Source: Luteitalea pratensis (GTDB lineage Bacteria; Acidobacteriota; Vicinamibacteria; Vicinamibacterales; Vicinamibacteraceae). From it: a stretch of DNA of 64,000 bases. Shown piece by piece: positions 23,226-51,509 of this stretch. The position numbers were made by a program, and so were the translations under genes. How positions within the stretch are numbered: position 1 is the stretch's first letter; each line of letters begins with the position of its first letter. The DNA is taken from the NCBI RefSeq assembly GCF_001618865.1, contig NZ_CP015136.1, positions 1,585,001-1,649,000 of the forward strand, written 5' to 3'. The notes under the pieces are model-generated. The model was not told the DNA's origin. It saw only the letters and a list, made by a program, of their open reading frames with translations, and ran no database searches.

Positions 23226-23280
23226 TACACCCTCCGCACGCCCGTTAAAGCCGCCATCGAACCCTCCGTTGCCGCGCTCG

Positions 23281-23788: not shown

Positions 23789-23921
23789 TCTGACGGCCTC
23801 GCGACCTTCCAGAGAATGGCCAACGACGCCGGAAGGACTGCTAGCAACACTCGATGAAACTGAGCTCCATTGGCAACGGCCATCACCGTACACAACCGCA
23901 TTCGAACGAAGAGAGCTTGTC

Positions 23922-26353: not shown

Positions 26354-26400
26354 ACGGTAAGACGTAGCAAAGGTGGTGACCTGCTTGCATTGCCGACGGC

Positions 26401-26691
26401 ATGGCCGAACTCGAGGCGAACCCCGCGGCTGAGGCGTCCATGACCGCGGCACCGTCACCCGTGCTGCGGCCGGAGCATGCGGAAAGTGATGTCGCCCGGC
26501 TGATCGAGCAGCAAACCGCGAAGGTCCCGTCGCACTGGTTCCTGATCGGGGCATTCAGCGCGATGGGGATATCGCTGGCGCTGGAACTCGCCGGCCGACA
26601 GCGAGCCAGCCGGTTCATCGGCCAGTGGCCGGCACCGCTGCTGATCATGGGGATGTACAACCAATTCGTGAAGACGCTCGGCACACGCTGA
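26401..26691 (+). CDS. small membrane protein of unknown function
   Basis: The 96-residue product has a soluble N-terminal helix (ESDVARLIEQQTAKVPSHW), one clear membrane helix (FLIGAFSAMGISLALELAG) and a second weaker hydrophobic segment (GQWPAPLLIMGMYNQF). It is divergent from the DUF1990 operon, about 50 bases away. It looks intact; no family name can be given with certainty. Confidence 0.6.
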   Translation: MAELEANPAAEASMTAAPSPVLRPEHAESDVARLIEQQTAKVPSHWFLIGAFSAMGISLALELAGRQRASRFIGQWPAPLLIMGMYNQFVKTLGTR

Positions 26692-26831
26692 GCAAGCGTC
26701 GCCCACCAGGCGACGACGGATGACGGCGAGCGCCTGAGTCGGCCACTCCGACGGTAGTGACCGGTGTCTGAGGTTTACCCCAGATGGATACGCGGGCGAC
26801 GCTCGGATTCGGTTCGGTCTGCCTCAGGACT

Positions 26832-28457
26832 TCACGGGTGACCGGTGCCGTGCCCCTCACCGACCACGAGAAACTTCAGCAGGTAGGCGATGGGATTGCC
26901 TTCGAAGTAGGCATGAGGGATGGTGCCAATCTCGTCGCGAATGTACAGCAACAACGCTGCGATGGCATTCGGGACCGCCGGACTCACACACCGCAGCACC
27001 CAATGCGGGCCGACGTACACGCCTTGCACGCACAGCTGATCGCTGAACGCGGACGCGTCACCTGGCTGCACCTCGTTGAAGAGGACGCGCTCGTCGGGCA
27101 CGAGGTGGTGGCTGTCTTCGGCCTCCTCCAGCTTCTGTTGGTACTCCGCGACGTCGCCCGCGTCAGGGCTGTTCGCGATGACCCGGATTGGTGCACCCGC
27201 GGCTTCACGCAGGAACACCTGCAGGGCATCAGTCTGTACTGAATGGATGCGTAGCTCCGTCGAACGCAGCACTCGAGATATCAACGACGTCAGGACGATG
27301 GAGACGATGAAGATGACGGCAATCTTGAGACCCCCCGGCGGACCCCATTAGGACCAGCACTCCGGTTGCATATGCGCCCCCTTGGGCGTTGACATCCGCC
27401 TTGAAGAGAATCGTGACCAGGTAGGCCACTGCCGTAAAAATCATCACCAGCGGCCTGTGCGCCTTCGCCCACTCCGGCCGACGCACCGGCGAACCACAGA
27501 ATCGCTACGGTGCTCAGGTCATAGACCGTCCGGAACGCCTCGCCGAGATGTTCATGGGCGATGTAGGCGAGTGCGCGGCCGTATGCCGGACCACCCTCCG
27601 CGAAGGCGGCAGGCGGAATGCGCAACGTCGTGACCACGCTACTCGCCGCAAGTAGGACGCTCATCAGCACCGCTGCCGCGGTCAACAGCTTCTTCGTCTT
27701 GCGAATACGGCCCTGTGGATGCTGCTCCGGGTCGCCCGGGTCGCGTTGGACCAACGGCATGACGGCGACGCCGGTCTCGAAGCCTGACAGGCCGAGTGCC
27801 AACCGGGGGAAGAGCAGCGCCGCCATCACGACCATCGATGTGGGATGTCCATGTGCTCGGGTAGCCGCGGTCCACCATGCCGACCATCGCGTCGGCTCCT
27901 GCCACAGGTGCAGAAGTCCCCACGCCAAGACGACCAGGTTCAGGAGCATGTAGACCGCCACGATGGGCACGGCGAGTCCCACGGCTTCGCGAAATCCCCT
28001 TAAGGAACACGGCTGCAAGCGCAGCGAGGAGGAGCAGGGTCAGCATCACGGGCTGCTTCGTCCAGCCCGGCATGAAAGGATTTTCGAGGAGGTGAGCCGT
28101 CGCATCTGCCGCCGAGAGCGTGATCGTGATGATGAACCCGGTCGCGGCGAACCCGAGGAGGCACAGCACCAAGGCCTTGCCGCGCCAACGGGGCAGCAGC
28201 GCTTCCAGAATCGAGATACTGCCTTGCCCATTTGGGGCTGAGCTGCGCCGCGCCGATACATCGGCAAGGCACCGAAGAGTGTCAGCAGCAACAAGATCAG
28301 GGTCGCCAGCGACCGGCGGCGAGGAACGCGATACCCGGTTGGTAGCCCAACGTGGAGAAGTAGTCCACGCCCGTGAGGCACATGACCTTCCACCAGGCCG
28401 ATTGATGAACGTCCGGTGGTGGCGCATACGCCCCCTCCGGCTCGGGGATGCCTTCAA
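26832..28457 (-). pseudogene. APC superfamily amino-acid permease, multiply frameshifted
   Basis: Successive pieces in alternating minus-strand frames form one permease: [19 protein letters not shown], then [144 protein letters not shown] and a C-terminal soluble tail ending near 26832. At least five frame changes are needed. The order is that of a typical twelve-helix amino-acid permease with a cytosolic C-terminal domain. It cannot produce a functional transporter as given. The substrate is unknown. Confidence 0.85.
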
Positions 28458-28532
28458 GAAACCAATCGATCAGAAACCTAAAGCAACCGCGATGTCACGC
28501 GGCCGAAGGTGCGTGCCCTGCCCGCCGTTCCC

Positions 28533-29549
28533 TCAGACATGGACGTCGCCCTTGCGCGACCCGCTCACTACGAGGATCGTCGCGTCGTCCCGACCGCGCA
28601 CGAAGTCGCGGCTGAGGACGCCGGCGATCACCGCCGGATGCCGCAGCAGCAGGCCCGGGTACGGGTCGAACGACCACCGGCTGGTAATCCCGTCCGAGTG
28701 CATCAGCAAGACACCCGGCGCCGGCATCACGTGCGCGTACGTGGAGACATGGCTGCGGATCTGGACGCCGACCGTCCCGTTCTCGCTGGCAAGACCGCGG
28801 CTGCGTTCGCTGCTGACCAGGCTCCCGGCGATGTTGCCGATGCCGGAGTACTGCACGTCTCCCGACCGGGCGATGATCGCCCGCGCCAGCGCCGCGCCAC
28901 GACTCCCTTTGAGGGACCGATGCGCCAGCTGGTAGAACTGCTCCGGCGTGGCGAACGGTTCGTCCTCGAAGGCGCCACCCGCGAGGCGCGCGGCGACAGC
29001 CGCCTCGGGCCCATGGCCGAGGCCGTCAGCCACCATCACGGCGATCTCCTGCCCGCGCTCGACGCTGCGCCAGGTGTCGCCGCAGACCTCCTCGCCCGGA
29101 AACGGCAGGCAAACGGCGCCGACCGTGAACCCGGTGGACGGCGCCGTGCTGGTGGCGATCCGCGACACGATCACCGTGCCCTTCCCTGGCGTCGAGTGGA
29201 CGTCGAATTCATCCGACAGCCGCTTCACGGCACCCAACCCATTGCCCGGCGTACCGACGGTCGAGAATCCGTCCTGCAGGCATCGCTGCACGTCGGTCAT
29301 CCCGGGGCCACCGTCCACCGACAGCAGTTCCAGCCAGCCGGACGCCCCGTGCGATATCACCTGCAGCAACATCCGGCCGTCGCGCGCGTGGCGCACGAGG
29401 TTGGTCGCCAGTTCGGTCGCGACGATCGCGGCATCACCCCGTCGTGACGGCGACAGCGCCAGCGTGTCCGCCATCCGCGAGATGGCACGACGGACCTCGC
29501 CGATCTGGCTCCGGTCCGACACCGGAATGCACAGCTGCAGGGGGTCCAT
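28533..29549 (-). CDS. SpoIIE/PP2C phosphatase with N-terminal HATPase (RsbW-like) domain
   Basis: Starting at ATG 29549 the protein (338 aa) has an anti-sigma-type ATPase domain (VATELATNLVRHA with the N-box, SVDGGPGM, GNGLGAVKRLSDEF) at residues 1-140 and a SpoIIE-like PP2C phosphatase domain (VMVADGLGHGPEAAVAAR, GVLLMHSDGI, RDDATILVV) from about 150 to the end. This arrangement fits partner-switch stress signalling, where the phosphatase removes phosphate from an anti-anti-sigma factor. Its ATG overlaps the stop of the rsbT-like gene by one base (TGATG), so both are co-translated. No RsbR/RsbS stressosome genes are adjacent. Confidence 0.85.
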   Translation of the reverse strand: MDPLQLCIPVSDRSQIGEVRRAISRMADTLALSPSRRGDAAIVATELATNLVRHARDGRMLLQVISHGASGWLELLSVDGGPGMTDVQRCLQDGFSTVGTPGNGLGAVKRLSDEFDVHSTPGKGTVIVSRIATSTAPSTGFTVGAVCLPFPGEEVCGDTWRSVERGQEIAVMVADGLGHGPEAAVAARLAGGAFEDEPFATPEQFYQLAHRSLKGSRGAALARAIIARSGDVQYSGIGNIAGSLVSSERSRGLASENGTVGVQIRSHVSTYAHVMPAPGVLLMHSDGITSRWSFDPYPGLLLRHPAVIAGVLSRDFVRGRDDATILVVSGSRKGDVHV

Positions 29550-29929
29550 CAATTCCACCGGACGATGGTCACCGTCGTCCCCCGTCCGAGGACGGACTCG
29601 ATCGAGAAGTGGCTGACGAGGCGCTTGGCGCCCGGCAGGCCAAGCCCCATGCCCTTGCCCGATGTCCAGCCGTCGTTCATCGCCTGCGCGACATCGGCAA
29701 TCCCCGGCCCCTGGTCGTTGAACTGCAGGCGCAGGCCCTTGCGGACGCCCTCGGCCAGCAACTCGCAAACCATCGTGCCACCAAGGCCATACACGACGGC
29801 GTTGCGTGCCAGCTCGCTGGTCGCGGTGACCATCTTGGTCTGATCGACCAGCCGGAACGCCAGTTGTTGGGTCAGACGTCGCACCGTTTGTCGCGCAATG
29901 ACGACGTCCTGCGCCGATCGGAGCGGCAT
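29549..29929 (-). CDS. rsbT: RsbT-like switch kinase (anti-sigma regulatory factor)
   Basis: From ATG 29929, with an AGGACTGAG box upstream, the 126-residue product is a compact HATPase: TSELARNAVVYGLGG (N-box), FNDQGPGIADV (G1) and GKGMGLGLPGAKRLVSHF (G2). This is the size and motif set of RsbT, the Ser/Thr kinase that is released from the stressosome and activates the downstream phosphatase. The open frame extends upstream, but those codons have no domain. Its coupling to the SpoIIE-type gene supports the assignment. The symbol is by family resemblance. Confidence 0.8.
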   Translation of the reverse strand: MPLRSAQDVVIARQTVRRLTQQLAFRLVDQTKMVTATSELARNAVVYGLGGTMVCELLAEGVRKGLRLQFNDQGPGIADVAQAMNDGWTSGKGMGLGLPGAKRLVSHFSIESVLGRGTTVTIVRWN

Positions 29930-30212
29930 GGACTCAGTCCTGATCGCAACGGGATGGCAACCGGCTGGTTCGATGGGAGTGGCGCCAGCTACCGGCGTCA
30001 CCAAATCGGCCCAGAACAGCGCACTCTGGTCCCGGAAGCGAATCGGTCGGGGTGGAGACATCGATGTCGCTCCCAAGCGAAGAGTAAGCCACTCACAGCG
30101 AGCAAAAGACCGCGGCAAAGGGTTAAGACGCTGGTCCCTGGAATGATTTCGCTGGCGCGCTGAGCCACGTCAGAGCAGCGACGGAGCTTCTCGGCAGCTG
30201 CAGGCCCGCCCC

Positions 30213-30471
30213 TTACCGCTTCTTCGCGGCCCTCTTCACCACCCGCCGTCGGTCGCCCTGGTCGCCGTGCCCAGGCATCACCGCGGTCTTCGCGGCGCGC
30301 TGTCGGTCAACGCTCAACGACCGGCTCACGTCGTCCATGTCGGACCACGTCCCATCACTGGCGCGTTTCACGAACCGCTTGTCCGTGCCGGTCGATCAGC
30401 TCACGCTTCGTCGTCGATCGCTTCGCAATCTTGTTCGGACTCGTCTTGGCCACTCGTGCCTCGTTTCGCAT
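30213..30471 (-). pseudogene. small Lys/Arg-rich hypothetical protein with a one-base frameshift
   Basis: The N-terminal frame encodes MRNEARVAKTSPNKIAKRST, then TKRELID. After a single-base shift near 30382 it continues TDKRFVKRASDGTWSDMDD and SRSLSVDRQRAAKTAVMPGHG to a basic tail KRAAKKR and TAA at 30213. The pieces join smoothly into an approximately 85-residue basic protein (KRELID-TDKRFVKR), which suggests a recently broken gene or a sequence error. Function unknown. It lies just downstream of the BrkB-type gene on the same strand. Confidence 0.55.
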
Positions 30472-30489
30472 GAAGGTCTACAACCAGCA

Positions 30490-31527
30490 TCACCGCGTGC
30501 GATTCCACCGCCTCGCCAGCAGCATCGCGCCAGCGACCATCGCACCCAATCCTCGTTTCGGAGGTGGCGGCGGGGACGGTGGCGTTGGCACCTCGGGCGG
30601 CGCGTCGCCCTGTCGCTCTCGGAACGCTCGTGCGGCGCGCGCGCCGAGAAGCCGTGTCCCCTGCGCGTTCTTCTGTCCTGGCGCCTTTCCGTACGGCGAG
30701 GCGTGTTCGATTTCGGCGTTCAACTCGGCGCCAGTCAAGATGGCGATGCCGGATACGTAAAACCAGAGCAAGACGACGATGACCCCACCAACGGTGCCGT
30801 AGGTCGCTTCATAATCCGTAAAGTTCGACACGTACACCTTGAACAGCAGTGAGATCACGAGCCAGAGCAGCGTGGCGGCGACGGCACCTGGTGTAATCCA
30901 CGCCCAATCCTGGTCCGCGTCAGGCCCGAAGTAGTACATGAGGCCAATCCCCGTGGTCACCAACGCGAACACGAGTGGCCACTGCAGTACGAGCCACGCC
31001 CACTCGAAGGGCGCCCCCCAGCCCGTCCTCTGTCCAAGCCATCCCGCGACGGTCGGTCCGACGAGAACCAGTGACAACGCAATCAGGACGATCGCTGCGA
31101 CACCCAGCGTCAGCCCGATGGCGACCAGGCGCACTTTCCACCAGGGCCGACCTTCGTCGATGTCGTAGGCGCGATTCAGCGCACCGACGATCGAGACGAG
31201 CGCCGCCGAACTACTCCACAACGCACCCGCAACACCGACGGTGAGCAACCCGCCGTTCTGGTTGTTGGCGAGTCGTCGCAGTTGCTCTTGAATCAGTCCG
31301 AGGACCTGCGCTGAGACAAACGGGCCGAGGGACCGGCCGATATCGTCGCTGAGGTTCGACAGCGGAAAAAAGCTCGCGAGCGCAAGCAGAAAGAGGATCG
31401 CCGGAAATAGCGCGAGGAAGAAATAGTACGACAGCTGAGCTGCTAGACCGAGCACGTCGTCATCTATGACTTCGCGCCACGTGCGACGCGCAAGTTCTGA
31501 CTTTGAAAGCGATCCTGTCTCGAGCAC
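30490..31527 (-). CDS. YihY/BrkB family inner-membrane protein
   Basis: The 345-residue protein has the family pattern: a cytosolic N-terminus, LGLAAQLSYYFFLALFPAIL as first helix, SSAALVSIVGALNRAYDI, and further helices ending in GGVIVVLLWFYVSGIAILTG. The C-terminal tail is basic and contains a polyproline run (PPSPPPPPKR). The start is GTG 31527. Family members are broadly distributed, uncharacterised membrane proteins once mislabelled as RNase BN. It appears intact. Confidence 0.9.
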   Translation of the reverse strand: MLETGSLSKSELARRTWREVIDDDVLGLAAQLSYYFFLALFPAILFLLALASFFPLSNLSDDIGRSLGPFVSAQVLGLIQEQLRRLANNQNGGLLTVGVAGALWSSSAALVSIVGALNRAYDIDEGRPWWKVRLVAIGLTLGVAAIVLIALSLVLVGPTVAGWLGQRTGWGAPFEWAWLVLQWPLVFALVTTGIGLMYYFGPDADQDWAWITPGAVAATLLWLVISLLFKVYVSNFTDYEATYGTVGGVIVVLLWFYVSGIAILTGAELNAEIEHASPYGKAPGQKNAQGTRLLGARAARAFRERQGDAPPEVPTPPSPPPPPKRGLGAMVAGAMLLARRWNRTR

Positions 31528-32150
31528 ACGAGGGGGAATGCAAGGCCCGAGCCGTGATTGGCGACAAGTGCGTGCGACCGATCAGAACCTGGCTTCAGCG
31601 CCTGAACGTCGGCGTCCGAGGCGGAGGCGGCATCCGACCCGAGAGTGACGTCAACCGTGGTCGCGCGCGAGGCGCAGGTAGCCGAATAAGCTTTTGGTCA
31701 CTCATTCCGTACTCCTTGCTGCCAAGGGCGTCCCGACTGCGTCAGCGATCGCCGCAAATTGTTCCAACATCAGACGACATGCAGCTGGAGCGCGCGCTGG
31801 GGACGTCTACCTTGAAGGGTCGCTCTGCGCAACGCGCACGGTCCGCTCCTCAGCCACTCTCGCCAGTCTCCCGGCGCGATCTCGACTGCGCTCGCACGGC
31901 TGCGTCTGCATCTGGGCCTTGCGTGCAGCCACGCTGTGTTGGTTTGCATGGAGCTGTAGGACCTCACTGCGGGAAGTTTCGCCGACCATCATCCCGGCTT
32001 CCAACATCAACCACCTGTAGGCACGCAGGCGCGCGGTCCACTTCTTGCTCTTGGCACAGTCATGTTCCGAGCGGTTACGGCTCGCGGTGAACCGCAACGG
32101 CCACGGTCGCTCGCGCGGCCGGAACCATCGCACGACAACGGAGGAAAAGC
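31528..32150. other. intergenic stretch, no convincing gene
   Basis: Between the divergent BrkB and secreted-protein genes only short frames appear. One minus-strand frame of about 36 codons (start MSDQKLIRLP near 31706) has an excellent AAGGAG at good spacing but a low-complexity Pro/Arg tail, so it may be the start of a decayed gene. The rest shows nothing recognisable. Confidence 0.4.
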
Positions 32151-32993
32151 ATGAAGCGCTCATTTCACTTTGTGACCGCGTTTACCGTGGCGGCTAGCGT
32201 GACGGCACTGGCTCAACAGCAGGGTGCGTCGACGGCCTCGCCGGCCGCGGGGGCCGAGACTTCTAAAACTCAGCAAACCACACTGCAAGGGTGCCTCCAG
32301 TCGGGCACGGGCACGAATTGGAAGAGCAGCCAAGGCACGTCCCCGGGCAGTGCCGGGTCCACCACCAGTAGCACCGGAAGCACGGCGACAGGCAGCACCA
32401 GCACGGGCAGCACCGGAGCGGCCGGCAGCACCGGCGCGACGGCAGAGACCCAGGGCGCCACCGCGCAGAGCGGACAGGACGCGGGGGCTGGTCGCACCGC
32501 TGGATATGCAGCCTCGGCTGGGGCCGGCGGGTACATCCTGCGCGTGAGCGGAGACGGCGGTGGCGCACGCACCGGCATGCCCAGCGCGACGGCGGGCCAG
32601 ACCGACGAGAGATCCGCAGCCGGCCAGCAGGGAGGTCAGGTCTATCACCTGATGGCAGATGCCTCGACCGACTTGTCCAAGCACGTCGGTCACGAAATCG
32701 AGGTGACAGGCTCGCTGACGTCGACTTCCGCGGGTCACTCCGGAATGTCGCAGTCGGGCGTGACTGGTGGCACCGCGACGACGGGTGCCGGCGCCACCGG
32801 TGGCGGTAGTGGCAGCAGCGGCTACGCCGGCCCAGGTACGTCGGGCAGCGGGAGCACGGGTAGCGGCGCAGCTGGCGGTGCGAGTGCAGCCCCGGGCGGC
32901 ACGGCTGCCATGGGTGCCATGGCCTCGCAAACAGGGATTGCCGGCACACTGCGCGTGACCAATCTGAAGATGATTGCCTCGACCTGTAAGTAG
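32151..32993 (+). CDS. secreted Gly/Ser/Thr-rich low-complexity protein
   Basis: A GGAGG ribosome binding site precedes the ATG. The protein (280 aa) begins with a signal peptide (FHFVTAFTVAASVTALAQ), then alternates folded blocks (TTLQGCLQSGT, YILRVSGDGGG, YHLMADASTDLSKHVGHEIE, GTLRVTNLKMIASTC) with long Gly/Ser/Thr/Ala linkers. The blocks joined together resemble a small exported beta-barrel module that recurs in acidobacterial genomes (LxGCL ... VGHxVEVTG ... MIASTC), here split by linker expansions. Two Cys frame the domain. A strong terminator follows. The function is unknown. Confidence 0.7.
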   Translation: MKRSFHFVTAFTVAASVTALAQQQGASTASPAAGAETSKTQQTTLQGCLQSGTGTNWKSSQGTSPGSAGSTTSSTGSTATGSTSTGSTGAAGSTGATAETQGATAQSGQDAGAGRTAGYAASAGAGGYILRVSGDGGGARTGMPSATAGQTDERSAAGQQGGQVYHLMADASTDLSKHVGHEIEVTGSLTSTSAGHSGMSQSGVTGGTATTGAGATGGGSGSSGYAGPGTSGSGSTGSGAAGGASAAPGGTAAMGAMASQTGIAGTLRVTNLKMIASTCK

Positions 32994-33012
32994 CGCGGCC
33001 CGGGAATACGCA

Positions 33013-33042
33013 AAGGCCGTCCCAAGATGCTGGGACGGCCTT
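33013..33042. terminator. intrinsic-terminator-like hairpin
   Basis: A 12-bp perfect stem (aaggccgtccca/tgggacggcctt) with a six-base loop lies 20 bases after the stop of the secreted-protein gene. The stem ends in TT and is followed by cact rather than a T-run. It could serve both strands. Confidence 0.75.
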
Positions 33043-33085
33043 CACTCGCGACCTTCGAAGTTTGCAATGTCAGGCTGATCCCCGA

Positions 33086-33220
33086 CTAATTCCCACACCT
33101 CGTCGCGCTTGTCATGATCTCGCCGGTCACGCCCCAGAGATGAAGGCGGAGCAGCGACTCGTTGCAGGACTTGCGCACGTTGAAGTGCCAGTCCTCGGTC
33201 GAGTGGGCTTTTGCCCTCAT
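33086..33220 (-). CDS. possible 44-residue small protein
   Basis: ATG 33220 follows GGGAGG at short spacing and opens a 44-codon frame starting MRAKAHSTEDWHFNVRKSC. The alternative frame of the same DNA (ending ELVGDQPDIANFEGRE) also looks protein-like, so the region may instead be a frameshifted remnant. No family recognised. Confidence 0.3.
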   Translation of the reverse strand: MRAKAHSTEDWHFNVRKSCNESLLRLHLWGVTGEIMTSATRCGN

Positions 33221-33328
33221 CAACCTCCCGCGAAGCTCGGAAGCCTTCTAACCGTGAGGAGTGCCACACGACGCGCCTGTGCGCGTTGACAGCGTTCCCC
33301 GCGTGGCCCCATGTCGGTCGGTCGGCTG

Positions 33329-33817
33329 TCAGGCGTTGGCTGAAGCGTTGACGTCGCTTGTGGCCAACTGCGTCAGCTTCTCATCTGTGAACTTCTCCTC
33401 CTCGAGGGTCTCCTCGAGGAGCTCGGCGGCTTCCGCAAGGCCCAAGGTGCCGGCCCACGCCACCAGCGTGCCGTACGCGGCAATCTCGTAGTGTTCTACC
33501 CGCTGCGCTTCAGCGATCAAGAGGGCGTCGGTGGTCGCCGAAGGGGGAGCGTTCAGGGCTGACTCGCCCTCCTTGAGAATGCCGGCGATACCGTCGCAGT
33601 GTTGGCGCCGGGGTGTCTCATTCACGAGCGCAAACACTCGGTCAAGGCGGTCGACATGCCCCTGCGTTTCCTTGGCATGCATTTCCACTGCGGCTCGTAG
33701 CTCAGAGGAGCTGGCCGCAGCCGCCACCGCGGGCAGTGCCTTCAAGAGCTGGTGTTCAGCGTCGTAGGAATCGCGCAACTCTTCCAGAAATAGTTCTTGC
33801 AAAGTGGTTTGGTGCAC
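33329..33817 (-). CDS. DUF892 (YciE-type) ferritin-like protein
   Basis: The GTG at 33817 is preferred over an in-frame codon 21 residues upstream because GAGGAA precedes it and the product then starts exactly at the domain (TTLQELFLEELRDSYDAEHQ). The helical bundle has EMHAKETQGHVDRLDRVFAL, HCDGIAGILKEGE, AQRVEHYEIAAYGTLVAWA and LLEETLEEEKFTDEKL, with Glu/His positions compatible with a di-iron site. Family members are stress-induced in enteric bacteria. A paralogue lies at 37501-38094. Confidence 0.88.
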   Translation of the reverse strand: MHQTTLQELFLEELRDSYDAEHQLLKALPAVAAAASSSELRAAVEMHAKETQGHVDRLDRVFALVNETPRRQHCDGIAGILKEGESALNAPPSATTDALLIAEAQRVEHYEIAAYGTLVAWAGTLGLAEAAELLEETLEEEKFTDEKLTQLATSDVNASANA

Positions 33818-34740
33818 TCGTGTGTTCCTCGCGGGTGTTTGGGGAAGCCCCGCGTGGAAGTGCAAGTTTGTTGCCGCCACTGGCCTCGATTGCTTGGAGC
33901 TTCACGGGAAGTCGCCGTCGATGCGGCAGGCTTCTGATACGGCCCGCGAATCCGCCGCGTGAGGACGCACAGACTCGAGGACCCAGGTCTGTTGCGGGTG
34001 AGCAGTGCAGTCTTCATGGTGCGCGCATCAACTACGTATGCAGCGTGATCCTGCGTGCAGCGCGCGCACTGCGGCGATAGCGGTTTCAGGCCGCGCCGTG
34101 GCTCAGCCGATCTCCTCGGTCTACACGTCACGTTCGTAAAGCCCGGCTGGACCTCAAGCGGCACGATAGCTCTCAGCCATGTCGGTGCGCGCGCTTCAGC
34201 ACCGGCGGTCGAGCTCATGTGCGACGCGCGATGTTCCCACCAGACGACCTGAAGAACGAGGACAGGACCGTGGCCGCTGTGCAGGCGGCCCAGTCCGCCG
34301 ACCTGTCCGCGCTCGAACGTGCCAGCCGGGTCCCCGTCTCGCAATTGACCGTCGGAACGTGGTCTCCAATGCGGATGATCGATCAGGAGTCAGTGACTCG
34401 TGATCCGAGTGGACAAGCCACGCGGCAGCTGTGTATTGGCCTCGTCTTGAAATAGCCATCGTGTGGTCGCCACGTGCTGACGATGAGCGCGAGCGGCGGC
34501 CTGTCCTTGGTTACTGCAACGTGTTCGATTGACACGCAGGGCAGCGAGCAGTCTCCGCAACCATCCGGCCGCGCCGATCCTCGTTGTCGAACGATCTGCG
34601 GCAGAAATTGCAGGCGAGCGCGTCATTCACGCCTGCCCAAGGATCTCAAACAGACGTGAGGTGCCGGAACCCCGAAGGCTGGTACGCAAAATGCTGCATT
34701 GACACACCTATGGATGTCGCTCTGTACGATCGCCCCCCCT
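33818..34740. other. no recognisable gene
   Basis: About 900 bases hold only short frames with no recognisable domain, no strong start sites and no clear repeats. The right part (from about 34590) probably contains eroded upstream codons of the alcohol dehydrogenase remnant that follows. Confidence 0.45.
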
Positions 34741-35049
34741 CCCTGGCCGATTCCCGGCGTCTATGGCGGCTGGCTCGACAAGTTTCCCTTGGGCGCCGCA
34801 TTCGCGAAGGGGCTGACGCTGAAGATGGGGCAGACCCACATGCACAAGTACATGCCCATCTTGCTCGAGCGTATTGACCGCGGCGAAATCGATCCCTCCA
34901 TCATCATCACGCACCGGATCGGTCTCGAAGATGCGCCGGCCATGTATCGCACGTTTCGCGACAAACAGGACGCGTGCATCAAGGTCGCCATGAAACCCGG
35001 CGTGACGGCGCCCGACCATACAGATCCCCCGTCTTCTCGGCAGCAGTGA
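34741..35049 (+). pseudogene. C-terminal fragment of a zinc-dependent alcohol/formaldehyde dehydrogenase
   Basis: The frame reads [20 protein letters not shown], then [40 protein letters not shown] and a tail [12 protein letters not shown]. This is the final third of the zinc-dependent dehydrogenase subfamily that includes glutathione-independent formaldehyde dehydrogenases. The catalytic zinc domain and most of the Rossmann domain are missing; a homopolymer of C at 34733-34739 marks the break. It ends seven bases before katE. Confidence 0.8.
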
Positions 35050-35056
35050 TCCGCAT

Positions 35057-37459
35057 ATGGCCAAATCATCTCGACCCGCAATGACCGCCAGAAACACGAG
35101 CACCGTACGTCATAGCCGAACGACCGCGAGCGGTCCGGCCGAGCCAGACGCGTCAGGTGCTGGCGACATCCTCGCCGAGAAAGCGGCAGGCACGCAGGAG
35201 CTCGCGTCGGCGTTTCCTTTCAACCCCAACAAGGCGGCCGAATATGATCCGGACGCGGCGCTCGCTCCTCCTGAGGGGCCGTCCGTCAGGCCCGCCGATC
35301 CGATTGTCGGGGCTAGTACGGTCACGGAGCGGAACGGTTCGGACAAGGTCGGCAGCGGTAGTCCCAACATCGGGCAGAATCCGACCGTTGGTCCGCTCGA
35401 TCGCGTACGCGTCGATTCAACCAACCGCGTGCTCACGACCAACCAGGGCGTGCCTATCGCCGACAATCAGCACTCGCTGAAGGCAGGCCTGCGGGGACCG
35501 ACCCTCCTCGAGGACTTCATCCTTCGCGAGAAGATCACGCACTTCGATCACGAGCGTATCCCCGAGCGGATTGTGCACGCGCGCGGCTCCGCGGCGCACG
35601 GCGTCTTCGAGTGTACCCAGGCGATTCCCGAGTTCACGCGCGCATCGCTCCTTGGCGAAGTCGGGAAACAGACCCCGGTCTTCGTCCGCTTCTCGACCGT
35701 GCTCGGCGAACGCGGCTCGACTGACACGGCGCGGGACGTGCGTGGGTTCGCGGTCAAGTTCTACACCGACCAAGGCAACTGGGATCTGGTGGGCAATAAC
35801 ATCCCGGTCTTCTTCATCCAGGACGCGATGAAGTTCCCCGACCTCGTGCACGCCGCCAAGCCCGAGCCGCATTTCGCCATGCCGCAGGCGGGAACAGCCC
35901 ACGACACGTTCTGGGACTTTGCGTCGCTGATGCCGGAAATCACCCACATGCTGATGTGGGCGATGTCGGACCGCGCCATCCCGCGCAGCTATCGGACGAT
36001 GCAGGGTTTCGGCGTCCATACCTACCGCCTGGTCAACGATGAGGGCGAGTCGCACTTCGTCAAGTTCCACTGGAGCCCGAAGGCAGGCACGCATTCGCTG
36101 GTCTGGGATGAGGCCGTCAAGATTTCCGGGGCGGACCCGGATTTCCATCGCCGCGACCTGTGGGAAGCCATCGAGGCGGGGGCGTACCCGGAATACGAGC
36201 TGGGGCTGCAGGTCTTCACCGAAGAGCAGGCGGAGGGCTTCAGCTTCGACGTCCTCGACGCCACGAAGATCGTCCCGGAGGAGCTCGTGCCGATCGTGCC
36301 AGTCGGCCGGATGGTCCTGAACCGGAATCCGGACAACTTCTTCGCGGAGACCGAGCAAGTGGCGTTCTGCGTGGCGCACGTCGTGCCCGGCATCGACTTC
36401 TCCAACGACCCGCTGCTGGCCGGTCGCATTCATTCGTACGTCGACACACAGATTTCACGGCTCGGCGGTCCGAACTTTCACGAAATCCCGATCAACGCGC
36501 CGATCGCCCAGGTGCACAACAACCAGCGTGACGGGATACACCGCCAGGCGATCCATCGGGGCCGCGTCTCTTACGAGCCGAACTCGCTCGGGGGCGGCTG
36601 TCCCTTCCAGGCCGGCGCCGCTGGGTTGGTCTCCTTCCCGGAACCTCGAGAGGCCGACGACCACAAGGTTCGCGGGAAGGCGGAGCGATTCGCCGACCAC
36701 TACACGCAAGCGACGTTGTTCTGGAACAGCCAGACTGACGTCGAAAAGCAACACATCATCAACGCGTTCCGGTTCGAGTTGTCCCGCGTCCAGACCCCCG
36801 CCGTCCGCGAGCGCATGGTCTCGGGCCTGATGCATGTGGACGCTGACCTGGCACAAGCCGTCGCGACAGGGCTCGGGATCCGGGAGATGCCCACCCCGAT
36901 GCCCAAGGTGATGACGCGCGAGCTCACGCCCGAAGTGACCGCATCGCCCGCCTTGTCACTGTTCGCCAGACCCGGCGACGGCAGCATTCGCGCCAGGCGG
37001 ATCGCCATCGTCGTAGCCGATGGCTGCGAGGCAGCCTCGCTCGTCGCGCTCGCCCAGCGCCTCACCGCCGAAGGTGCCGTCGCCCGCTTTGTGTCCACGG
37101 CGCTCGGCGCGGTGGAACCAACATCAGGCGATGCCATCGAAGTGGACGTGAGCCTCGAAGCGGCGCCATCGGTGCTCTACGACGCGATGGTGCTTCCTGC
37201 TGGCGCTGACGCCGTACGTCGGCTGCAGACCGATGGGCGCACACTCGAGTTCATCAAGGATCAATACCGCCATTGCAAGCCCCTGCTGGCCTTCGGCGAG
37301 GGTGCACAGCTGCTCACCGCGTGCGGGATCGAGACCGACGCGGCCGACCCCGGCCTCATCGTGGCGACGACCGATGCGACGGACGCGACTGACGCCTTCG
37401 TCGCGGCACTGGCCAAGCATCGGCACTTTGCTCGGGAGACCGATCCACCGCGCGTGTGA
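35057..37459 (+). CDS. katE: large-subunit monofunctional catalase (HPII type) with C-terminal DJ-1/PfpI-like domain
   Basis: The 800-residue protein decomposes hydrogen peroxide. The catalytic His is in [17 protein letters not shown] (near residue 175), the catalytic Asn in [20 protein letters not shown] (near 249) and the proximal heme Tyr in [18 protein letters not shown] (near 460). The N-terminal 100 residues are a low-complexity extension. From about residue 650 a flavodoxin-like domain ([20 protein letters not shown]) follows, as in E. coli HPII. Start MAKSSRPAM lacks a strong Shine-Dalgarno; internal starts are possible because the N-terminus is variable in the family. It is followed 41 bases later by a DUF892 gene, suggesting an oxidative-stress unit. 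Confidence 0.95.
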
Positions 37460-37500
37460 GATGCGCGCTTGTTCACGATCAACACAGAGGAGATTCGACC

Positions 37501-38094
37501 ATGGCTGAAGCAGGCACGCTCCACGACGCATTCATCGACGAACTGCGCGACACGTATGACGCCGAGAAACAGTTGACCAAGGCGCTGCCGAAACTGGCAA
37601 AGGCAGCCTCCGACCCGACGCTGCGCCAGGCGTTCGAAAGCCACCTCGAGGAGACGCGCCGCCAGATCGCACGGCTGGAACAGGTCTTCGAGAGCCTGGA
37701 CGAAAAGGTCCGCGGAAAGCACTGCGACGGGATCGCCGGGATCATCGAGGAAGGCAAGGCCGTCATGGAGGAAGACTTCGACGAGACAACAATGGACGCT
37801 TGCCTGATTGCGTCCGGCCAGCGCGCCGAGCACTACGAGATGGCCGCCTACGGCACGTTGGTTGCGTGGGCGACCGCGATGGGCCACACGGACGCGGCGC
37901 GCCTGCTGCAGGAAACCCTCGACGAGGAGAAAGCCGCGGACGAGAAGTTGTCGTCGCTGGCCGAGGGCGGGATCAACCAGGCTGCCGCAGGAGCGGGGCA
38001 GCCCGACGAAGAGGAAGACGAGCCCGCCGCCGTCGGTGCTGGCGCGAAGAAGACGGCTGCGGCGAAAGCCAAAAAAGCCGGCGCGAGGCGCTAG
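37501..38094 (+). CDS. DUF892 ferritin-like protein with basic Ala/Lys-rich tail
   Basis: A clear GAGGAG precedes the ATG. Residues 1-160 match DUF892: TLHDAFIDELRDTYDAEKQL, HCDGIAGIIEEGKAVMEED, QRAEHYEMAAYGTLVAWATA and LLQETLDEEKAADEKL. The remaining tail is acidic (DEEEDEPAA) and then basic (KKTAAAKAKKAGARR), like histone-type tails that bind DNA. This tail is absent from the paralogue at 33329-33817. A role in protecting DNA from peroxide together with KatE is plausible but inferred. Confidence 0.88.
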   Translation: MAEAGTLHDAFIDELRDTYDAEKQLTKALPKLAKAASDPTLRQAFESHLEETRRQIARLEQVFESLDEKVRGKHCDGIAGIIEEGKAVMEEDFDETTMDACLIASGQRAEHYEMAAYGTLVAWATAMGHTDAARLLQETLDEEKAADEKLSSLAEGGINQAAAGAGQPDEEEDEPAAVGAGAKKTAAAKAKKAGARR

Positions 38095-38336
38095 CACAGG
38101 TGGCGTCGTGGTCTTGATCCGGCCCTCGCCGCGGAGCCGGGCTCGGCCTTGGCCAAACGCTTTGCCCAAGATGCTCCCGGTCGTCGGCACGGCGCTCCTG
38201 CCGATCGACGTCATAAATGATCCCGCTCGACGGACGTCGCCGGGGGCCACTCCGGCACGTTCGGCTTCTGACACCTGCTCGTCGAAGTGGACCGCGGCGC
38301 ACGACAGAGCTTCAGTCTACGAGCAAGGAGGCTCAT

Positions 38337-38996
38337 GTGAAGTGGTTTCGTGATCGCGCATTGACGCTGGTGCTGATGGCGATGTTTCTGCTCTCCCTCG
38401 CCGCACAGATAGTCACGGGCCTGTCCGAATACAACGCCACACAACGCGAGCACGGCGCGCCACTCGTGAGCAGCACCGGCTACCTGGCGACGGGGCATCC
38501 ATGGGAAGCCCTCTTTGAGAACTGGGAGAGCGAATTCCTGCAGATGGCCGTGTTCGTCTTGCTGACGACGTGGCTCGTACAGAAGGGTTCGCCGGAATCG
38601 AGACGACCGGGCGCGAAAGAGCTCGTGGACACGGATCCCCGAGACTTCGCACACGATCCCGAGGCTCCGTGGCCAGTCAGGCGGGGCGGCTGGATCCTGC
38701 GGCTCTATGAGCATTCGCTCGGGCTCGCATTCATTCTGCTGTTCCTGCTGTCGTGGATCGGCCATGCGCTCGGCGGCTCTTCGGACTATGCCGCCGAGGC
38801 AGTCCTGCACCATCAGCCTCAGCCGACGTTCACCGACTATGTCACTTCGTCCCGTTTCTGGTTCGAGTCGTTTCAGAACTGGCAGAGTGAGTTCCTCGCT
38901 ATCGCGGCGATGGTGTGGCTCGCCGTCTACCTTCGACAACGATGGTCGCCGGAATCCAAACCGGTGCACGCACCGCATGCCGAAACGGGGCGTTGA
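38337..38996 (+). CDS. DUF6766 family membrane protein
   Basis: The GTG at 38337 has AGGAGG at ideal spacing. The 219-residue product has an N-terminal helix (LTLVLMAMFLLSLAAQIVTG), then GHPWEALFENWESEFLQMAV, a soluble loop, a second helix (LGLAFILLFLLSWIGHALGG) and a repeat of the first motif (FWFESFQNWQSEFLAIAAMV). The duplicated ExxxNWxSEFL motif is characteristic of this family. Function unknown; often found with stress genes. It appears intact. Confidence 0.85.
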   Translation: MKWFRDRALTLVLMAMFLLSLAAQIVTGLSEYNATQREHGAPLVSSTGYLATGHPWEALFENWESEFLQMAVFVLLTTWLVQKGSPESRRPGAKELVDTDPRDFAHDPEAPWPVRRGGWILRLYEHSLGLAFILLFLLSWIGHALGGSSDYAAEAVLHHQPQPTFTDYVTSSRFWFESFQNWQSEFLAIAAMVWLAVYLRQRWSPESKPVHAPHAETGR

Positions 38997-41221: not shown

Positions 41222-41547
41222 GTGCGCTTCGTCGTCGACGCCCAACTCCCGCCCGCCCTCGCTCGCCGCATCGCCGCGGCCGGCCACCTCTGCGAGCACG
41301 TTGCGGATTGCGGGGTCTTGACGGCTCCGGATCCGACCATTCGCGCCTACGCCAATGAAGTCGGTGCAGCCATCATCACGTAGGATGAAGACTTCGCCAT
41401 ACACCTGCTGCTGCACGGTGGACCTGCAGTGGTGTGGCTTGGCTTGGCAACACGCGCCGTGCCGCCTTGCTCGCCCGAGTCGAAGCCGATCTGGGGCGCA
41501 TTGTGGCCGCGCTCCAGAGCGGAGAGACGCTCATCGAAGTCGTATGA
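41222..41547 (+). pseudogene. DUF5615 PIN-like toxin with in-frame stop and frameshift
   Basis: From a GTG the frame reads RFVVDAQLPPALARRIAAAG and TIRAYANEVGAAIIT, then TAG where intact relatives have a Lys or Thr codon before DEDF. It resumes DEDFAIHLLLHGGPAVVWL, and after a shift reads LGNTRRAALLARVEADLGRI and GETLIEVV to TGA 41547. The PIN-like acidic residues (Asp in VVDAQLP, DEDF) are recognisable. DUF5615 proteins are VapC-related toxins usually preceded by a DUF433 antitoxin; none is seen here. The gene lies beside the TOTE-type helicase gene, tail to tail. Confidence 0.75.
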
Positions 41548-41636: not shown

Positions 41637-44510
41637 CTACGCTTCCGGGTCACGCCGAGCGGCGAGTGCTCGCAGGATATCGTCGAGCACCGTGTCCAGT
41701 TCCTTGCCCACATCCTCGGCGAGGAAGCGCAGGACCAGGTACCCACTCTCCTGAAGCAGGCGATCCTTCCGCCGGTCGCGTCGATACGCCACCGGATCCG
41801 CGAGGTGCTGCGCGCCATCCAGTTCGACGGCCACGCGCGCGTCGGTGCACAGCAGATCCACCTCGAGGCGTGCCATTCCGTCGAATGCGACGGGTAGCGA
41901 CTCGTTGACGGTGAATCGTCCCCGCGTCTCGGGTAGCGACTGCAGTCGTCGATAGAGGAACGCCTCGGTGGCGCTGCGGGCGCGATCGGCGCCCTCGGCG
42001 TCTGCCGACACGTCGCGCGCCGCATGGACGAACAGGCTGGCCAGCGGGGTGTCGACCCCGTCACGCACGAGTCGTCGGACGCTGCCAGAGTAATCGCGCT
42101 TCCAGACCGGGTCCGATGGCAGCACGACATCGCCCGGCCATCCGGGGATCGCACTGGCTGGCAGGAGCACTGTATAGCCCACGGCCTCGTAGCCGCGGCA
42201 CCGCCGATCGAACATGCGCGCGAGCATCGGCACATCGAGGTCTGCGTAGTCGAAGATCTGCACCTCGCGCTTGCCATCGGCGAGTCGATGCAGGCGTCCT
42301 GCATACTGCGCGATGGTCCCGCGCCACGACACCGGCAGCGTGAGGAACAGCGTGTCGAGGCGCGCATCGTCGAACCCCTCACCGATGTACTTCCCGGTGG
42401 CAAGGATGACCCTGGGCGCGTCGTGCGGGATCGCCGCCAGCCGTTCCATGAGGGCCCGCCGCTGCTTCTTCCGCATGCCGGCTCTCAGAACGACGAGGTG
42501 CTCGACGTGCGACCCGAGGTCGCGTTCGAGCCGGTCCAGATGGTCGTTCCGTTCCGTCAGCAGCAAGGGAGACCGCCCCATGCGAACGGCCTCGAGCACA
42601 TCCTCGCAGATGCGCCTATTGCGGGTTCCGTCCTCGACCAACTCCTGGTAGAGCGTGTGGAACTCCACCCGCTTGTCGGTGTCGGGCGGCCGTGCCGATC
42701 GGAATGATGTCGGCTGGACGCGCACGTAGTGCTCGAAGGGCCGCGCGGCCGCTTGTGCCCGGGCGCTGACGTGATGCCTGACGGGCCCACACTGCATGGT
42801 GATGATCGGGTGATGGCCGTCCTTGCGCGCGACCGTCGCCGAGAGCCCGACGACGTACCTGGCCTTCGCCTGGCGGACGACCTGCTCGAAGCTGTGCGCC
42901 GACAGGTGATGGCACTCATCCACGATCACGTGGCCGTAGTCAGCGACGCGATCGTCGACGACGCCCTTCCGGGCCAGGCTCTGGATGAGCGCGACGTCGA
43001 GCAGGCCGGTCGGCCGGTTCATGCCGCCGCCGATTCGCCCAATCGACTTCGGCTCGATGGCGAGGAAGGCTGACAGGCGCTCGACCCACTGATCCTGCAA
43101 CTGACGCCGATGCACCAACACCAGCGTGTTGACGCGGCGTTGCGCGATGAGCCACGCCGCGACGACGGTCTTGCCGAATGCCGTCGTGGCGGCGAGTACT
43201 CCCGTGTCGTGAGCGATCATCGCAGTGGCGGCGGCCCGCTGCTCAGGGCGCAACTCGCCCTGGAATGCCACGTCGAGCGGTCCGCCCCGGCGACGCTCAT
43301 CCCGGACGGTGGCGCGAACGCCGAGACCGTCCAGCAACTGGCGGACGTCATCCAGACATCCTCGTGGCAGCGCGATATGCTGCGCGTGGTCCTCGGCGCA
43401 CGCGATCACTCGCGGCGTGTCGTGCGTCGACAGCCGCATCGCCTGGGCCTTGTAGAACTCCGGATTCTGGAAGGCCGCCAGCCGCAACAAGTGATTCCGG
43501 AGGCCGGGAGGCAGCGCGTCCTTCGCGACATACACCTGGTTGGCGAGGATCAGTTCCAGCGTGGCCGGCAACGTGCCAGCGACCGCGGTCGATCCTCGCC
43601 GTTTCGATGGTGGTGCTGTCCACGGCGTCGCCTCATCCTCGTCCTCAGGCGGCAGCCGCACGCCGATGACGCGGCCGTGGCGTTCGGCGTTCTGGACGAC
43701 CGCTTCGACGCGAGTGCGCGGCGCCTTACGAACGCGCGCGAGGTACGCCCATTGATCGGCCACCGGCTCGAGGTCGTCGGTGAGGAAGACCGTGTGGCCC
43801 AATGCGCGTGGTTGCCGCTGCAGCGGCAGCGCGATCAGGTTGCCGAAGCCGCCCTTCGGAAGCGTGTCCTGATTCGGGAAGAGGCGGTCGTACGAGTCGA
43901 AGCCCATGTCCGGGCGCGACTCCATGGCCTCGGTCAGGAGGTGCGTCCCGAGCCGGCGAGCCAGGGCAGCCGGAAGCGCTTCATCAAAGAAGATCCAGAC
44001 GTGTGCGCCCTGGCCCGACCGCGAACGCTCGATGGCCGCCGGCACGTCCAGTGCCCTGCAGGCGTTGGCATACGCCAACGCATCGTCTCTCCAGGTCGTC
44101 TTGTCGAAGTCTGCAGCGAGGAAGAAGCAGGTCTCGTCCAGGAGCAGGGGATACACCCCAGCGACAAAGGGCTGGCCCGCGGCGTCTTGACCGGACAAAT
44201 GCCACCGGATGACCTCGTCGGTCACCGGGAGAAACCGTCGATGGGCACACTCCGCGCACTTGATGCGCGGCTTCTCGCAGATGCCCCGCACCCACTCATG
44301 GGCACAGGCGGGTGCGTAGCCGGATCGCCCGGTCTTCCGGCTCTCGAAGCGGCGAGGGTAGACGTCGTCCCTGCCACGGAAGAGCGAGCGGAACACGGCG
44401 ATCTTGGCCGAGGCAGGCGCCAGACGATCAACGGCGACCCGAGCATCAGCCCTTGGCGTGTTCGATTCCATGGCCATCACCGACGGCGGCGCGATGCGTT
44501 TCCGCCCCAC
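41637..44510 (-). CDS. TOTE-type primase/SF2 helicase/DUF559-like nuclease fusion
   Basis: This 957-residue protein joins three modules. Residues about 35-260 form an archaeo-eukaryotic primase of the type described in TOTE conflict systems: a Cys cluster (C69, C78, C85, C88), the catalytic LAADFDK (133-137) and SGQGAHVWIFF (165-175). Residues about 410-790 are an SF2 helicase: TTAFGKTVVAAWL (Walker A near 443), DECHH (motif II, near 530) and QYAGRLHR (motif VI, near 736). The C-terminus (about 840-957) resembles DUF559/Vsr-like nucleases: EVDLLCTDARVAVELDGAQH, then YRRDRRKDRLLQESG. The GTG start at 44510 has GGAGG three bases away, inside the tRNA-Arg-like scar; ATG 44474 is an alternative. 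No internal breaks are present despite the decayed surroundings. It is expected to act on DNA in the cytoplasm; a defence role is inferred. Confidence 0.85.
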   Translation of the reverse strand: MGRKRIAPPSVMAMESNTPRADARVAVDRLAPASAKIAVFRSLFRGRDDVYPRRFESRKTGRSGYAPACAHEWVRGICEKPRIKCAECAHRRFLPVTDEVIRWHLSGQDAAGQPFVAGVYPLLLDETCFFLAADFDKTTWRDDALAYANACRALDVPAAIERSRSGQGAHVWIFFDEALPAALARRLGTHLLTEAMESRPDMGFDSYDRLFPNQDTLPKGGFGNLIALPLQRQPRALGHTVFLTDDLEPVADQWAYLARVRKAPRTRVEAVVQNAERHGRVIGVRLPPEDEDEATPWTAPPSKRRGSTAVAGTLPATLELILANQVYVAKDALPPGLRNHLLRLAAFQNPEFYKAQAMRLSTHDTPRVIACAEDHAQHIALPRGCLDDVRQLLDGLGVRATVRDERRRGGPLDVAFQGELRPEQRAAATAMIAHDTGVLAATTAFGKTVVAAWLIAQRRVNTLVLVHRRQLQDQWVERLSAFLAIEPKSIGRIGGGMNRPTGLLDVALIQSLARKGVVDDRVADYGHVIVDECHHLSAHSFEQVVRQAKARYVVGLSATVARKDGHHPIITMQCGPVRHHVSARAQAAARPFEHYVRVQPTSFRSARPPDTDKRVEFHTLYQELVEDGTRNRRICEDVLEAVRMGRSPLLLTERNDHLDRLERDLGSHVEHLVVLRAGMRKKQRRALMERLAAIPHDAPRVILATGKYIGEGFDDARLDTLFLTLPVSWRGTIAQYAGRLHRLADGKREVQIFDYADLDVPMLARMFDRRCRGYEAVGYTVLLPASAIPGWPGDVVLPSDPVWKRDYSGSVRRLVRDGVDTPLASLFVHAARDVSADAEGADRARSATEAFLYRRLQSLPETRGRFTVNESLPVAFDGMARLEVDLLCTDARVAVELDGAQHLADPVAYRRDRRKDRLLQESGYLVLRFLAEDVGKELDTVLDDILRALAARRDPEA

Positions 44511-44514
44511 ATTC

Positions 44515-44562
44515 CTCCGGAGCCAAAGTCAGAGGTTCGAATCCTCGCGCCGATCATCACCA
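44515..44562 (+). other. probable 3' remnant of a tRNA-Arg(CCG) gene (att scar)
   Basis: The sequence reads CTCCGGA (an anticodon loop with CCG), GCCAA, AGTC and the T-arm AGAGG-TTCGAAT-CCTCG, whose GGTTCGAATCC box is the tRNA consensus; ACCA occurs at 44559-44562. The 5' half is absent and the acceptor strand is not conserved, so this is a degenerate scar, not a tRNA. The 3' end points right, away from the island. The opposite strand of the anticodon loop supplies the Shine-Dalgarno of the helicase gene. Confidence 0.5.
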
Positions 44563-50786: not shown

Positions 50787-51509
50787 ATGGAAATCACCGC
50801 GAACACTGTCGGTGTCCAACTAGCCAACATGTTGCGCCTCGGCGCCTTGATGTTGTTGTGCCTGGCGATGAGCGTCACCTGCGCCCGTGTGCTTCGGCCC
50901 GGCATGAACTCGGACTGTGCATGGCCGCCCGAGACGGTCGATGTGCTCGACCTCTCGAATGCCGCAGATGCACGGCACCTGGTGGTCGACGCGGAGTTGA
51001 TCGACGAGTTGGTCGATCGGTACCGCTTTCACCCGACGGTTGAGCAACGCCGCCAGTGCGAGACGCGCCTTGTCGCCACCGTCGCACACGTGCACGGCTT
51101 AGGCGTGGGTGATGTCGCGCAGGCGCGGCTGCGGGTGTTCGACCGAGGACTGAATCTCCCGGTCATCCTTCCCATGGTGGCGATGTTCATCGGAAGCGCG
51201 CGGCGAGTCACTCGATGGATCCAGGAGCGGTTTGGAGAAGACCCACTGATGAGGGTCGTCAGCCTGAGCGTCGCGTCGATTGGGCTGAGCGGATCCTTCG
51301 TGCTGGTTGGGGAGTTGTGGACTTCGGTGCTGCAGATGATTCGGGTGGGAAGTCAGCACGTCGGCGGCCGCGTCGACAGGCTGCCGTGGCTGCAGCATCA
51401 GCCACTCATCTTCGTCCTCGGCCTCGGGCTGTTCTGGGTCGTTTACTCGGTGACCCTGGCAGCTGCCCGTGGTCGCCAAGACCCCAGAGCTGCTGAACGC
51501 TCGCACTAG
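50787..51509 (+). CDS. hypothetical membrane protein with two or three helices
   Basis: The 240-residue product has an N-terminal hydrophobic segment (LRLGALMLLCLAMSVTCARV), a soluble Asp-rich region (ADARHLVVDAELIDELVDRY), LPVILPMVAMFIGSARRVTR, VSLSVASIGLSGSFVLVGEL and a C-terminal helix (PLIFVLGLGLFWVVYSVTLA). No recognised family. The start at 50787 lacks a good Shine-Dalgarno; ATG 50829 is an alternative that would begin directly at the first helix. Confidence 0.6.
   Translation: MEITANTVGVQLANMLRLGALMLLCLAMSVTCARVLRPGMNSDCAWPPETVDVLDLSNAADARHLVVDAELIDELVDRYRFHPTVEQRRQCETRLVATVAHVHGLGVGDVAQARLRVFDRGLNLPVILPMVAMFIGSARRVTRWIQERFGEDPLMRVVSLSVASIGLSGSFVLVGELWTSVLQMIRVGSQHVGGRVDRLPWLQHQPLIFVLGLGLFWVVYSVTLAAARGRQDPRAAERSH

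Follow-up and report, generated by a model that had tools for sequence, protein, structure and literature searches.

The 64,000-nucleotide stretch of the Luteitalea pratensis chromosome analysed here (positions 1,585,001–1,649,000 of NZ_CP015136.1; hereafter the window, with positions counted from its first letter) carries one gene in which a primase, a helicase motor and a predicted nuclease are united in a single chain. The encoded protein is a widespread, conserved variant of the Prim-Pol–helicase proteins, and filing it under the TOTE conflict systems, as a first-pass annotation of this DNA had done, is wrong. It is probably a gene of DNA defence or DNA repair, with a biochemistry that is predicted. 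Our leading reading, held tentatively and at a little under even confidence, is that of a self-contained DNA-processing enzyme, in some genomes the cargo of small tRNA-targeting islands, that most likely acts against foreign DNA. No assigned job for the bacterial non-CRISPR Prim-Pol–helicase proteins was found in the available text of the literature searched. With a nuclease built in, a widespread clade offers a readout that can be assayed, DNA cutting, and thereby a direct way into the question whether these proteins serve defence, repair or the replication of mobile DNA.

Domain layout and predicted folds

The gene and the domains recognized within it are as follows.

41637..44510, minus strand: archaeo-eukaryotic primase (AEP)–superfamily 2 (SF2) helicase–DUF559 gene, 957 residues, uninterrupted frame from a GTG
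43701..44405, minus strand: AEP-TOTE primase domain, residues 36–270 (Pfam, structure match to 7nqf_B, invariant motif residues)
44247..44306, minus strand: cysteine cluster C69, C78, C85, C88 (alignment of 58 rows)
43266..43565, minus strand: domain ahead of the helicase, residues 316–415, at the place of the damage-recognition domain of XPB (alignment with 6p4f_C, model residues 316–776)
42171..43265, minus strand: XPB/RadD-like SF2 helicase, residues 416–780 (Pfam, structure, K447, D531-E-C-H534, R739, R742)
41652..41975, minus strand: DUF559/Vsr-like nuclease domain, residues 846–953 (Pfam, separately modelled fold, invariant residues)

Translation more likely begins at an ATG, that of residue 12 or that of residue 14 (near 44477 or 44471), than at the GTG, because the possible starts of five uncut relatives, picked by hand, fall 9–20 residues ahead of the KIALFRS motif. 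An intact three-module protein had been proposed by the first-pass annotation, and each module finds its Pfam family: AEP-TOTE (PF22548) at residues 36–270 with an E-value of 2.7e-96 (322 bits against a cut-off of 27, profile positions 2–229 of 230), ResIII at 419–561 (3.6e-19) and DUF559 (PF04480) at 881–949 (1.4e-13). Helicase_C at 643–743 stays under its cut-off (0.033), nonetheless the structure alignments with XPB span the second lobe. The top PADLOC match of the 957-residue protein is a CRISPR-associated PrimPol model (4.9e-90), and the NCBIfam models PrimPol_Msp (NF040561, 68.7 bits) and XPB (NF045503, 49.6 bits) remain below their equivalog cut-offs of 200 and 610. Judged by such profile scores, the motor is XPB-like, yet not an XPB. 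The G+C content of the gene is 67.5%, compared with 65.9% for the window, and a clear foreign signal is absent.

The whole protein was modelled with AlphaFold2 on 58 aligned sequences, which comprise the window copy, 41 of the 57 relatives that bear the DUF559 tail (the tailed loci described below) and 16 of 23 others; cut, broken, duplicate and unneeded rows were excluded. The model has a mean pLDDT of 82.7 and a pTM of 0.62, therefore its domain folds are usable and the relative placement of the domains less so. Structure comparison (VIA-align 2) pairs the primase region with the Prim-Pol domain of Marinitoga CAPP (7nqf_B, Z 26.3, rmsd 2.1, 204 aligned), and the CAPP chains 7nqf, 7nqd and 7nqe all score at a Z of about 26. 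The helicase ranks XPB first by structure (7egb_6, Z 35.4, rmsd 4.1, 416 aligned, model residues 290–796), and the XPB chain of an XPB–Bax1–fork complex aligns from the preceding domain onwards (6p4f_C, Z 29.9, rmsd 4.2, 390 aligned); INO80, SNF2-type and RadD chains are its other structural matches, and in sequence XPB and RadD are the nearest helicases of solved structure.

The C-terminal 158 residues were modelled separately (pLDDT 86.8) and match 3hrl (Z 13.0, rmsd 2.0, 94 aligned), I-Bth0305I (Z 11.7) and Vsr (1cw0, Z 10.2, rmsd 2.2, 100 aligned). Bax1 follows with a middling value (6p4w_D, Z 8.0, rmsd 3.1, 98 aligned), and mitoribosome chains score between it and the Vsr-type matches. 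In addition, a profile of 43 tails picks up 3hrl by sequence at 8.6e-9, with the motif residues aligned. In the model, the C-terminus is a Vsr-like nuclease fold of the PD-(D/E)xK type, for which DNA cleavage is predicted. The two matches on which the first-pass annotation had staked its domain reading, that of the N-terminus to the AEP-TOTE profile and that of the C-terminus to a PD-(D/E)xK-like fold, are thus both present.

Conservation, distribution and descent

The residues expected to matter are strictly kept. Across the 58 rows, D134, D136, S165, H170 and D208 of the primase are invariant; we take D134/D136 to be the catalytic aspartate pair and S165...H170 the Ser...His motif of AEP primases. 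The cysteine cluster noted at first pass, a putative zinc binder, is likewise invariant in these rows and is missing from the relatives L011, L028 and L030. The same holds for K447, R739 and R742 of the helicase and for D531-E-C-H534, which agrees with the DECHH motif of the earlier description, while in 43 rows the tail keeps E883, E896, D898, R910, R913, K915, D916 and Q920. The ratio of nonsynonymous to synonymous substitution (dN/dS) is 0.07–0.27 where dS is below 1, that is, in two pairs of relatives and in the nuclease of a third, the window copy being in none of them; elsewhere dS is for the most part at or near saturation. These codon comparisons indicate that purifying selection acts on every domain tested in the family, and the selection supposed at first pass is to that extent upheld.

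In the phylum of the window's genome, 125 of 297 genomes have a match of any kind, many of them to the helicase only, and seven loci (L004–L010, one cut at its 5' end) encode a primase–helicase–tail protein. None of the four other members of the genus has the AEP-TOTE domain; of 59 relatives, the window's genome not counted, 12 have it, several as fragments only. When GTDB contigs were scanned with the tailed alignment as query, at least 556 relatives came up, of which the best 80 were kept. The DUF559 tail is found in 57 of these 80, a share that is biased upward because the query alignment was itself tailed. By record title the relatives belong to Acidobacteriota, Verrucomicrobiota, Planctomycetota, Lentisphaerota, Pseudomonadota, Myxococcota and Riflebacteria, and since nearly all are metagenome-assembled genomes, some of these labels may be binning errors.

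In a tree of the core domains built on the same 58 rows, the 42 tailed rows form one side of a single branch (SH-aLRT 100; quick search, no bootstrap), and the tail state needs one change, a single gain or loss; the untailed rows L075 and L101 end at contig ends, where a tail would not be visible. Phylum labels need 17 changes on this tree compared with a minimum of 8, which makes transfer between phyla likely, and binning errors and paralogy may also inflate that count. As far as alignment and tree can tell, this is a widespread subfamily found in several phyla and not a local fusion. The suggestion that the all-in-one protein is an under-described variant holds in that no description of a TOTE-type primase fused to DUF559 was found in the open literature searched, but the protein is no isolated oddity. 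The nearest row to the window copy is L037, with 76% identity over the core. A PLD tail occupies the same place in L027, L029 and L031 (PF13091/PLDc_2, 7.8e-12 to 1.7e-13), and other relatives are tailless. Frames broken inside a contig occur in L052, L065, L070, L090, L091, L093 and L105, some of them possibly through assembly errors.

Relatives are few among viral contigs. A pattern scan of the 2.9 million contigs of IMG/VR found eight, one of them tailed; this tailed gene lies on a viral contig (L138:4002–8417), with an AbiEii gene about 0.9 kb downstream. A phage origin was considered and rejected, as no phage record covers 80% of the protein; among the matches listed (25 of 1,032 phage matches), the helicase region aligned, in two together with a bit of the tail, and the primase did not. 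One of 264 plasmid records covers 80% of the protein, and the tail alone gave six weak matches.

tRNA ends, mobility and neighbouring genes

Two further features border the gene.

44495..44558, plus strand: att-like scar, a tRNA-Arg(CCG)-like 3' half with about 19 bp of element-side sequence (similarity to two genomic copies)
41222..41546, plus strand: decayed gene of DUF5615 (PIN-like) type, convergent with the 3' end of the primase gene (in-frame stop at 41381–41383)

An att-like scar at the edge of the gene had been pointed out at first pass, and the genome bears this out: at the 5' edge, 44495–44549 matches 6035216–6035271 over 56 bp (91% identical), and a second copy at 6017866–6017917 matches over 52 bp (90% identical). 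The 3' half of an intact tRNA-Arg(CCG), that at 6073514–6073587, recurs in both remnants, which stand in tandem downstream of that tRNA at about 38 and 56 kb, with 17 kb between them; the tRNA is 4.4 Mb away from the window scar. Because the match takes in some 19 bp of element-side sequence, the window scar would derive from the end of a related element. No tRNA gene was found in the window, and a gapped search of it for a partner att end gave, apart from the scar already known, a single weak piece at 50646. A tRNA 5' half was not found in the window either, thus the other limit of the island is not fixed; the S41 protease on the right-hand side has no match at an E-value of 1e-50 in 39 relatives, so that an empty site could not be shown. 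On the left, a remnant of a tRNA T-arm and acceptor end without a full tRNA (17291–17307, minus strand) ends in CCGCACCA and is possibly a second att scar. Furthermore, window positions 50827–51504 and 18884–19337 are 85% and 83% identical to L119:8197–8869 and L119:8951–9391, which are adjacent and lie beside the tRNA-Arg(CCG) island; the 240-residue open reading frame (ORF) at 50787–51509 has no Pfam match.

Other loci present the arrangement more completely. In L037 a 4.5-kb unit, which also holds a DUF433 antitoxin-like gene, places the gene between a tRNA-Ser and an exact 22-bp repeat of the tRNA 3' end, and a third, weaker repeat copy follows 3.3 kb further on. Simple gene calls place no integrase-size gene beside the gene in this unit. 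Outside the gene, L037 and the window DNA give only short, chance-level alignments. Both copies have small convergent toxin–antitoxin-type genes on their 3' side, and a shared unit is not shown because the 107-residue ORF of L037 has no Pfam match. The untailed gene of L112, from an Aminicenantes chromosome, is part of a 5.8-kb element (L112:6740–12583) bounded by 45-bp perfect tRNA-Met repeats, together with a recombinase (PF00589, its frame split into two ORFs) and an AbiEii gene.

Across the tailed loci (56 of 57, L081 being left out; a scan for T-arms also took in the window copy), a full tRNA lies within 1.5 kb of six of the 56 genes. Of 11 tRNA positions, with the four of L058 counted once, six lie in this range, which makes up 23% of the flanking bases (p 0.025 relative to the remainder of these loci). 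By hand count, eight of the ten tRNAs or T-arms within 2 kb are oriented against the gene (chance about 0.055), a figure that is not relied on, many contigs being short of 5' flank.

A rival idea is that the protein serves the replication or maintenance of the islands, with the primase–helicase copying the excised element and the nuclease nicking or resolving it. AEP proteins with helicases have been described as replication modules of integrated elements (PMC5862659). The L112 element unites recombinase, AbiEii gene and primase–helicase, and the untailed L122, L123, L127 and L129 lie close to three consecutive tyrosine recombinases, on four of the eight alphaproteobacterial plasmids viewed. 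The tailed genes themselves, however, have at most one PF00589 match among 82 neighbours, six recombinase queries matched only L038 and L044 among the tailed loci, and the L037 unit lacks an integrase-size gene alongside. An XPB-like SF2 motor is not a typical replicative helicase, and viral-contig relatives number only the eight of the IMG/VR scan. A role in element replication is unlikely, and action on foreign DNA remains the preferred reading.

The surroundings of the window copy are mixed. The first-pass annotation had many neighbours decayed, which is true of DUF5615, with its in-frame stop at 41381, but not of the catalase, DUF892, DUF6766, S41 protease and HipA, all full or nearly full Pfam matches. 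It is very improbable that the primase gene is itself a decaying relic whose domain match is real and whose product no longer works: the adjoining gene has decayed, the att scar is truncated, and broken frames and fragments exist among the relatives, whereas the window copy has its full frame without stops and retains the family-invariant residues.

Window positions 20739–38996 hold a stress-type cluster of polyphosphate kinase, two DUF1990, a SpoIIE-like protein, BrkB, two DUF892, catalase and DUF6766. These stress genes are in line with an accessory role in repairing DNA or tolerating damage, as a single-chain machine of the excision type: the XPB-like motor would open the DNA at lesions, the Vsr-like nuclease would nick it, and the Prim-Pol would fill or re-prime the gap. 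XPB and RadD as nearest solved helicases by sequence, XPB as first by structure, the precedent of XPB–Bax1 as a repair helicase–nuclease (PMC7293015), Vsr as itself a repair endonuclease and the purifying selection on the family all speak for it. The very patchy distribution, with absence from all four other genus members, the tRNA-edge positions at some loci and a tail exchangeable with PLD speak against it, and we consider repair doubtful, though the most credible of the alternatives to defence against foreign DNA.

A fixed operon partner was looked for and rejected: when 2,870 ORFs from around tailed and untailed genes were clustered, no cluster reached more than eight (tailed) or seven (untailed) of the 80 loci, at scattered distances. 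Nearest to a pattern are AbiEii directly upstream in L045 and L054, preceded by AbiEi-type genes (one just under cut-off), and a SLFN_AlbA_2/HATPase_c_4 protein in five tailed and untailed loci (L044, L064, L095, L106, L116; four Pfam-scanned, L116 not among them, and one with AlbA_2 under cut-off). Among 82 sequences hand-chosen from the neighbours that a simple gene caller gave for tailed genes (L082:6216–7517 included), Pfam finds SNF2 and ResIII four times each, DUF4143, AbiEii, AAA_14 and Helicase_C three times each, and Fic, PIN and SLFN_AlbA_2 twice each. Of the PADLOC models, the 25 listed (DpdE, ZorD, DrmD, BrxH, HmaA and DrmA among them) match four members each. These neighbours suggest accessory islands and are no proof of a defence island.

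Proposed function and known systems

In the proposed mechanism, the motor would bind duplex DNA beside a single-strand junction such as a fork, a gap or processed incoming DNA, the Prim-Pol would bind or prime the exposed strand, and the nuclease would cut close to the junction; priming or gap synthesis would be an extra step or serve for sensing. Since both halves match XPB–Bax1 complexes, helicase and nuclease would act as XPB–Bax1 does, in one chain and with a polymerase added. Foreign DNA is suggested as the target by the mobile context, the patchy distribution, the swapped nuclease tails and some neighbours of toxin–antitoxin or defence type. A bolder and rather speculative version sees an integrase-less, single-polypeptide mobile immunity gene that reads DNA topology and not sequence: motor and Prim-Pol would sense the unprotected fork or gap of an invader, priming would mark the strand and the Vsr-like nuclease would cut it. 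In relatives, the prime-and-pump core would stay constant and the cutter vary between Vsr-like, PLD and none.

Several observations weigh against action on foreign DNA. No phage or plasmid assay was found. The untailed relatives near recombinase trios fit element maintenance as well, and the left neighbourhood of the window copy is a stress-type cluster (catalase, DUF892, polyphosphate kinase), not a defence island. No neighbour family exceeds four of the 82, and ordinary ones such as DUF1501 and PAS_4 also reach two, in a view of the 25 commonest of 106 families without a control set. The tRNA enrichment varies with distance (p 0.26 at 500 bp, 0.095 at 1,000, 0.025 at 1,500 and 0.020 at 2,000) and the T-arm scan alone is not significant (three near, four far, p 0.18). 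Finally, the Prim-Pol of Thermus thermophilus was earlier reported as a barrier to environmental DNA (PMC7693054), but loss of addAB accompanied every Prim-Pol mutant and confounds the defence effect (PMC9751324).

Among known systems, TOTE stands for TPR, OB, TBP and Effector (PMC12458937). The primase domain falls in the Pfam family named after these systems, and by that name only the primase is of TOTE type. Membership is rejected for want of a TBP and of a partner gene at a fixed place: the TBP domain PF00352 was found in none of 16 genomes (the window's own and 15 that carry tailed loci, out of 57 such loci), with four archaeal controls positive, although a very divergent TBP could escape Pfam. 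As to TPR and OB components, the neighbourhoods show no gene that keeps a fixed place, in a view of the 25 commonest of 106 Pfam families.

With the DUF559/Vsr-like endonucleases (3hrl, I-Bth0305I, Vsr) the protein shares the fold and, in the alignment with 3hrl, the motif residues, and it differs from them in being fused to a motor and a primase. ICETh2 of T. thermophilus is likewise a small element at a tRNA 3' end that carries a Prim-Pol and a helicase, joined in certain strains by a toxin–antitoxin pair (PMC7693054, PMC9751324); there, Prim-Pol and helicase are separate genes, and a fused nuclease is not described in the available text. For the archaeal XPB–Bax1 complex, it is proposed that the nuclease cuts into one arm of forked DNA (PMC7293015). 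An XPB-like motor with a preceding domain and a nuclease of the same broad fold are common to both, whereas the present protein is a single chain and not two, has a DUF559/Vsr-like nuclease in place of that of Bax1 and adds a Prim-Pol.

The closest described relatives are the Prim-Pol–helicase proteins of CAPP_A type 3. Prim-Pol–helicase proteins are frequent among bacteria that lack CRISPR, and a Prim-Pol followed by a helicase is the most prevalent architecture among the non-CRISPR relatives (PMC8211822). CAPP_A proteins have operonic Cas1/Cas2; among the part of the window ORFs that was scanned, no cas family was found. The present protein shares with type 3 the Prim-Pol fold and the helicase that follows, and it departs from that type, as described in the available text of PMC8211822, by adding a C-terminal Vsr-like nuclease.

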